64,000 nucleotides of DNA from an uncultured Pelagibacteraceae bacterium. GTDB taxonomy: Bacteria; Pseudomonadota; Alphaproteobacteria; Pelagibacterales; Pelagibacteraceae. The translations under genes were made by a program, and so were the position numbers. The number at the start of each line of letters is the position of its first letter. The first letter of the stretch is position 1. The stretch is from positions 1-64,000 of the forward strand of contig CACPFN010000004.1 in NCBI GenBank assembly GCA_902633185.1, read 5' to 3'. Of the stretch, positions 63,821-63,984 are shown piece after piece. The notes under the pieces are model-generated. The model was not told where the DNA came from, ran no database searches, and worked only from the letters and a program-made list of their open reading frames with translations.

Positions 63821-63849
63821 TTGACATAACTATTCAAAAAAAATACAAA
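63821..63849 (+). promoter_or_regulatory. Promoter of the histone-like peptide gene
   Basis: TTGACA (63821-63826), a 17-base spacer and TACAAA (63844-63849) precede the lysine-rich frame. The perfect -35 stands out in the A/T homopolymers of this 183-base gap. The start site would be near 63856, at the base of the leader stem-loop. Confidence 0.62.
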
Positions 63850-63853
63850 AAGG

Positions 63854-63884
63854 TAATTAAACGAATCAAAAAGATTCGTAATTA
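63854..63884 (+). promoter_or_regulatory. Leader stem-loop upstream of the histone-like peptide gene
   Basis: TAATTAAACGAATC (63854-63867) pairs with GATTCGTAATTA (63873-63884) as twelve base pairs with a two-A bulge and an AAAAA loop. No T-run follows, so it does not look like a terminator. The ribosome binding site GGGAG lies at 63890-63894, six bases after the stem, so the structure could protect the 5' end or affect initiation. Confidence 0.65.
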
Positions 63885-63900
63885 AAAAAGGGAGCTAAAG

Positions 63901-63984
63901 ATGGCTAAAAGAAGAAAAAAAGCTGCTAAAAAGAAAACTAAGAAAAAAGCTAAGAAAAAAGCTAAAAAGAAAAAAAGAAGATAG
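63901..63984 (+). CDS. 27-residue histone-H1-like lysine-rich peptide
   Basis: The frame encodes 16 Lys, 4 Arg, 5 Ala, 1 Thr and the Met, with repeats of KKKAKKK type and RR at each end; net charge is about +20 with no acidic residue. This resembles the lysine/alanine tails of bacterial histone-H1-like proteins and would bind DNA or RNA. A strong Shine-Dalgarno site (GGGAG, six bases before the ATG), a good promoter and a leader stem-loop support real expression, although poly-A-rich DNA can give such frames by chance. No globular domain is present. Confidence 0.68.
   Translation: MAKRRKKAAKKKTKKKAKKKAKKKKRR

Follow-up and report, generated by a model that had tools for sequence, protein, structure and literature searches.

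Near the end of a 64,000-nucleotide stretch of DNA from an uncultured Pelagibacteraceae bacterium (hereafter the window; host genome 1.16 Mb, 82% complete), a promoter-like sequence and a hairpin precede a very short open reading frame. Is such a frame a gene, and how might its translation be governed? The encoded peptide, MAKRRKKAAKKKTKKKAKKKAKKKKRR, carries lysine or arginine at 20 of its 27 residues and has a net charge of about +20, in agreement with a preliminary description of this locus. The main point absent from that description is the complementarity of the translation start to the loop of RF01814 ('rhtB' RNA), an RNA encoded at a separate locus of the host genome. The features are collected in Table 1.

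Table 1. Features of the peptide locus and of its predicted partner RNA (positions in the window unless marked otherwise)
Feature	Position	Strand	Basis
-35 element TTGACA	63821..63826	+	sequence; kept in relatives
Putative -10 element TACAAA	63844..63849	+	17-nt spacer from the -35 element; weak match
5' leader hairpin	63854..63884	+	fold and arm pairing across genera
Shine-Dalgarno GGGAG	63890..63894	+	invariant in 28/28 loci of the motif-free search that contain it
Predicted antisense target site GGGAGCTAAAGATGGCTA	63890..63907	+	perfect complement of the RF01814 loop
Gene for a 27-aa basic peptide, MAKRRKKAAKKKTKKKAKKKAKKKKRR	63901..63984	+	open reading frame and conservation
RF01814 RNA	G000:C1:82025-82102, outside the window	minus	covariance model, 74.9 bits

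A DNA search of 60 relatives, in which no motif was forced, recovered the locus in 29 of the 37 genomes of the genus as a recurring module consisting of a TTGACA promoter, a 5' hairpin, a GGGAG site and a K/R-rich peptide of 20-41 aa. In all 28 loci that contained the start, the sequence there is GGGAGCTAAAGATG, and a K/R-rich peptide follows. The presence of the module in most genomes of the genus, with a K/R-rich product wherever the start is present, shows that the peptide gene is more than a chance frame. A pattern scan, which fixed the hairpin and the start by its own pattern, collected 120 stretches, 119 of them with K/R-rich peptides of 21-41 aa and one running off its contig. The contigs with this leader-and-start pattern belonged to Pelagibacteraceae, Pelagibacterales or Candidatus Pelagibacter, which places the window in SAR11; a viral origin was dismissed, as the pattern was absent from the viral contigs searched. 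Many low-E matches of the DNA search (query 90-156) proved to be other lysine-rich coding repeats and were set aside. Among peptide genes of equal length, single-base codon differences were synonymous in 1884 and non-synonymous in 980 cases against mutational opportunities of 42:192, the tally being one of pairwise counts and hence of non-independent events. The length of the peptide varies among relatives, and the frame is never lost. No Pfam or NCBIfam model matched the peptide or its 76-85-aa relatives, a test weakened by their low-complexity sequence, and a PDB sequence search revealed no family for the peptide or the long relatives. Overall, the feature is real, conserved and under-described; at this length, the gene probably escapes the usual gene callers.

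Relatives of the peptide were found outside the genus when carD was used as an anchor. A K/R-rich open reading frame convergent with carD was present in 12 of 13 loci from seven other genera of the family, and in a second family (f2) the same place is occupied by 76-91-aa H1-tail-like proteins. The f2 gene order (basic-protein gene, convergent carD, ferredoxin gene) matches that of the window's contig. Together, the positional relatives in the other genera and in f2 span 31-91 aa, and the longer ones carry KAAPKKKK repeats, which makes the term 'H1-tail-like' of the preliminary description apt. These carD-convergent frames identify the Pelagibacter peptide as the short form of an order-wide gene. 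The convergent CarD-type regulator itself (L001:1845-2702, minus strand, just beyond the window end) has a long lysine-rich N-terminal extension, in f2 too. Between the peptide gene and carD, at about 64007-64047 of G000:C4 and also just beyond the window end, lies a strong hairpin, AACGCTTC...GAAGCGTT, followed by T8; AACGCTTC is kept in relatives, and the hairpin is probably a shared terminator. A second kind of SAR11 polybasic protein was also seen: a large protein encoded at L042:1388-2638 (plus strand) ends in a very long, K-rich C-terminus of 416 aa, and large K-rich-tailed proteins occur in similar places in L043 and L046-L048.

The promoter and leader were largely as first described. 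TTGACA and its 17-base spacing are present at 63821-63849, with a weak -10 element that matches TATAAT at 4 of 6 positions. A general promoter scan, which demands T at position 6, did not list the TTGACA/TACAAA pair. Of 171 collected leaders, 165 carry TTGACA, which lies 39-42 nt upstream of CGAATC. This spacing puts the hairpin close to where the mRNA probably begins; the -10 region of relatives keeps its A/T-rich character. The hairpin core, ACGAATC-AAAAA-GATTCGT (63861-63879), forms 7 bp (63861-63867 with 63873-63879), beyond which five A-U pairs across a 2-nt bulge bring the total to 12. Folded with its surroundings the hairpin reaches -9.3 kcal/mol (z = -3.9), which none of 200 shuffles equalled. 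The twelve-base-pair stem proposed earlier hence exists in the window, but relatives keep the 7-bp core alone, the outer TAATT/AATTA pairs being unconserved.

Across genera the 5' arm CGAATCA is almost unchanged. The 3' arm varies with pairing retained (GATTCG; GATTTG, by G-U; GTGATTC versus GAATCAC; TTGATTC versus GAATCAA), and some genera have long leader stems ending in AAGTGA. Within the genus, an outer G-C replaces A-U in L034 and a G-U maintains the stem in L286. The conservation check proposed in the preliminary description therefore gave a positive answer, as both frame and hairpin are kept in other SAR11 genomes and the stem shows wobble and compensatory changes. A fixed 5' arm, tracked by the 3' arm through pairing, supports folding of the leader RNA into a hairpin and a further constraint on the 5' arm itself, CGAATCA being fixed for a reason additional to pairing. 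CcrM and GcrA have been reported for a cluster including Pelagibacter (PMC2877005), and methylation-linked control of the peptide promoter is possible. As a GANTC (CcrM/GcrA) site, however, the leader palindrome was rejected: GAATC is invariant in the 5' arm, but the site in the 3' arm disappears with pairing retained, so that methylation alone is insufficient. GANTC is rare in the whole window (95 observed versus 185 expected under an order-1 model, about half); this rarity notwithstanding, the 5' arm of the leader (63862-63878 region) holds a GAATC that is fixed across the order. The SAR11 section of a study of in-situ start sites (PMC5069720) does not mention the peptide locus.

The translation start, GGGAGCUAAAGAUGGCUA (63890-63907), is an 18-nt perfect complement of the RF01814 loop, spanning the Shine-Dalgarno sequence and the AUG and reaching into codon 3. 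The window's own genome holds one copy of RF01814, which passes the gathering score of 55 bits. RF01814 scored above the cut-off in 29 of 61 genomes, every one in the same genus, and its loop, TAGCCATCTTTAGCTCCC, the reverse complement of 63890-63907, was the same in 29/29. The match had also surfaced in the DNA search, where leader positions 49-89 were matched a second time in six relatives; all three of these six sites that were scanned were RF01814 on the opposite strand. A search of eight genomes that allowed up to 3 mismatches gave no sites at 0-1 mismatch other than the peptide start and the RF01814 loop; reversed controls were empty at this level. With up to 1 mismatch, 37/37 genus genomes matched, as did no f2 genome and no reversed control. 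The predicted duplex has an energy of about -36 kcal/mol. For 68 other ORF starts of the window, the mean is -8.0 and the best value -14.5; unrestricted 60-nt windows elsewhere reached duplex energies down to -26 kcal/mol. Part of the target, GAGCU/GGCU, is a candidate for self-pairing within the mRNA.

Of the 113 genus genomes with a completeness of 90% or more, 106 have RF01814, incompleteness being able to explain the remaining seven, and the peptide module was found in all 20 tested RF01814-positive genomes at least 97% complete (G012 apart). Within a genome the two lie on different contigs or at far-apart places, i.e. RF01814 is trans-encoded. In other genera and f2 no RF01814 exceeded the cut-off, and the other genera have differing starts, e.g. 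GGAGAGCAAAGATG, GGAGGAACGGAGATG and GGGAGAAAAGATG. Three further candidates were discarded: a 30.5-bit RF01814 match in G054 lacks the loop, the Rfam match on the leader itself is sub-threshold (20.8 bits, opposite strand) with the real loci elsewhere, and a second peptide gene on the reverse strand of RF01814 stops within a few codons or diverges.

Sequence changes in the two partners were compared. Four genomes (G163, G232, G238 and G181) carry an A version, AAAAATGG, in both target and loop (4/4 concordant, G-to-A), and all other genomes with both sites seen have the G version in both. In a CarD tree three of the four fall in one clade and G181 lies nearby with a G-type genome between; this placement reduces the concordance to one or two events, and the sequences leave room for what may be a single one. 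The variant loop carries a U at this position, which can pair with either G or A, so that a neutral intermediate exists. Not every change is matched: codon 2 is CCT (Ala-to-Pro) in 70 of 169 leaders with the loop unchanged, giving a C-C mismatch. The peptide start remains frozen even in the few genomes without detected RF01814.

The strand and surroundings of RF01814 were analyzed as well. Stem variants read on the RF01814 strand are U-G, where the opposite strand would give C-A. Most copies have a -10-like motif, TG.TATNNT, 6-8 nt upstream of the hairpin, and a clear T-run follows the stem in only 6 of 34 examined copies. A LysE-type gene begins 4-14 nt downstream in 25 of 34 copies, and AGGAC sits in the paired 3' arm. 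In L183, L187, L201 and L285 the hairpin is without a LysE-type gene and precedes a ProC-like gene or an AzlC-like open reading frame; the ProC-like gene of L183 is a weak oxidoreductase match, and the AzlC-like match is below the cut-off. Hfq (PF17209) was detected in 0/15 Pelagibacterales genomes and in 5/14 control genomes, an absence consistent with long pairing.

The 18-nt complementarity makes control by an antisense RNA most likely for the peptide gene. As far as sequence can tell, pairing of RF01814 with the start is strongly supported, and its position suggests that RF01814 switches off translation of the peptide. We propose, with a probability of roughly 0.7, a single-gene unit for a minimal H1-tail-like peptide whose start is targeted by trans-encoded RF01814, translation being repressed without Hfq. 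The region 63821-63984 would be transcribed as a one-gene unit, the Pelagibacter form of the carD-convergent order-wide protein. RF01814, encoded at another place in the genome (G000:C1, about 82025-82102, minus strand), would be a short hairpin with its loop exposed, and this loop would pair over 18 nt with the Shine-Dalgarno sequence, the AUG and the first part of codon 3, blocking ribosome loading independently of Hfq. The peptide would presumably neutralise or compact nucleic acid, with RF01814 setting its dose. Expression of both RNAs, their pairing in the cell, its repressive effect and the nucleic-acid role of the peptide are what we infer from sequence.

The main rival is a cis or reciprocal control of the exporter, and a cis role of RF01814 is possible, most copies lying just before a LysE-type gene. 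The proximity of that gene and the AGGAC in the paired arm would suit a reverse or two-way regulation, in which the peptide mRNA melts the RF01814 hairpin in the LysE-type leader, frees the AGGA site and activates the exporter. The spacing from AGGA to AUG, however, is variable and often too long, and hairpin and loop are retained at loci that lack the exporter gene, upstream of a ProC-like gene or another transporter gene; we consider this reading unlikely. Slightly less probable still is a mutual circuit, in which the peptide mRNA and the amino-acid exporter leader would pair through the 18-nt loop-to-start contact, so that the charge balance of nucleic acids and amino-acid export would be co-controlled without Hfq in these very abundant marine bacteria, the peptide possibly acting as an RNA annealer. 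The persistence of the hairpin before genes other than LysE-type ones leads us to prefer the trans repressor of the peptide.

Two accounts dispense with such a repressor. The peptide unit might be strong and constitutive, its 5' stem stabilising the mRNA as the preliminary description suggested, and the RF01814 match might be left over from an inverted duplication or mark a DNA-binding site common to both loci. The strong, conserved -35 element, the 5'-proximal hairpin and the Shine-Dalgarno sequence would fit, and the loop plausibly arose by inverted duplication; yet a relic or DNA site would not sit exactly on the Shine-Dalgarno sequence, the AUG and codons 2-3, nor be fixed genus-wide in a conserved loop that co-changes with its target, which renders this account quite improbable. 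Since the K/R-rich frame is complementary to the leader of a LysE-type gene, it could also be read as a leader-peptide sensor of lysine or arginine, whose stalling alters the pairing of the start region with the exporter leader. We give this very little credence: the 31-91-aa relatives that occupy this place in f2 and in other genera, where no RF01814 was detected, argue for a protein with its own function, and no exporter gene lies downstream of the peptide gene.

Antisense repression by RF01814 would bear on more than this locus. A conserved short SAR11 gene is brought to light, and RF01814, an orphan SAR11 Rfam family, gains a specific, testable target. The proposal further suggests long loop-to-start pairing as a means of translational control in streamlined bacteria that lack Hfq. 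Meyer et al. 2009 (PMC2704228) presented the rhtB motif as a candidate structured RNA with a conserved loop near rhtB, naming no target and assigning no function; the partner RNA, likewise a single bulged hairpin with a conserved loop and rhtB nearby, is a member of this family, and the proposed trans target is new here. Only PMC2704228 was found under the names RF01814 and rhtB RNA, which is weak evidence of novelty given the thin coverage of subscription journals.

On the protein side, the K-A(-P)-rich low complexity recalls Hc1/Hc2 and AlgP, the f2 forms (MEELKVIFAKARKKAKKKAAPKKK...) resemble H1 C-terminal tails, and length varies by repeats as in Hc2 (compare PMC2848022). The Pelagibacter peptide differs from Hc1/Hc2 and AlgP in being far shorter and without a Pfam or NCBIfam match, and its nucleic-acid binding is only presumed. 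The closest parallel in regulation is the small RNA IhtA of Chlamydia: its loop blocks access to the hctA start codon independently of Hfq. IhtA consists of three stem-loops, requires 7 nt around the AUG and acts on a second target as well (PMC4355289, PMC3469542). In each case the loop of a small RNA covers, or for RF01814 is predicted to cover, the AUG of a gene for a highly basic, H1-like protein without a need for Hfq, and the target start is conserved. The comparison concerns the way of working alone, repression in SAR11 being a prediction. RF01814, by contrast, would cover 18 nt from the Shine-Dalgarno sequence to codon 3 with one hairpin, on a 20-41-aa peptide of a free-living marine bacterium. 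If this is true, SAR11 would add to the Chlamydia IhtA/hctA pair a second and apparently independent instance of antisense-RNA control over a basic, H1-like protein.
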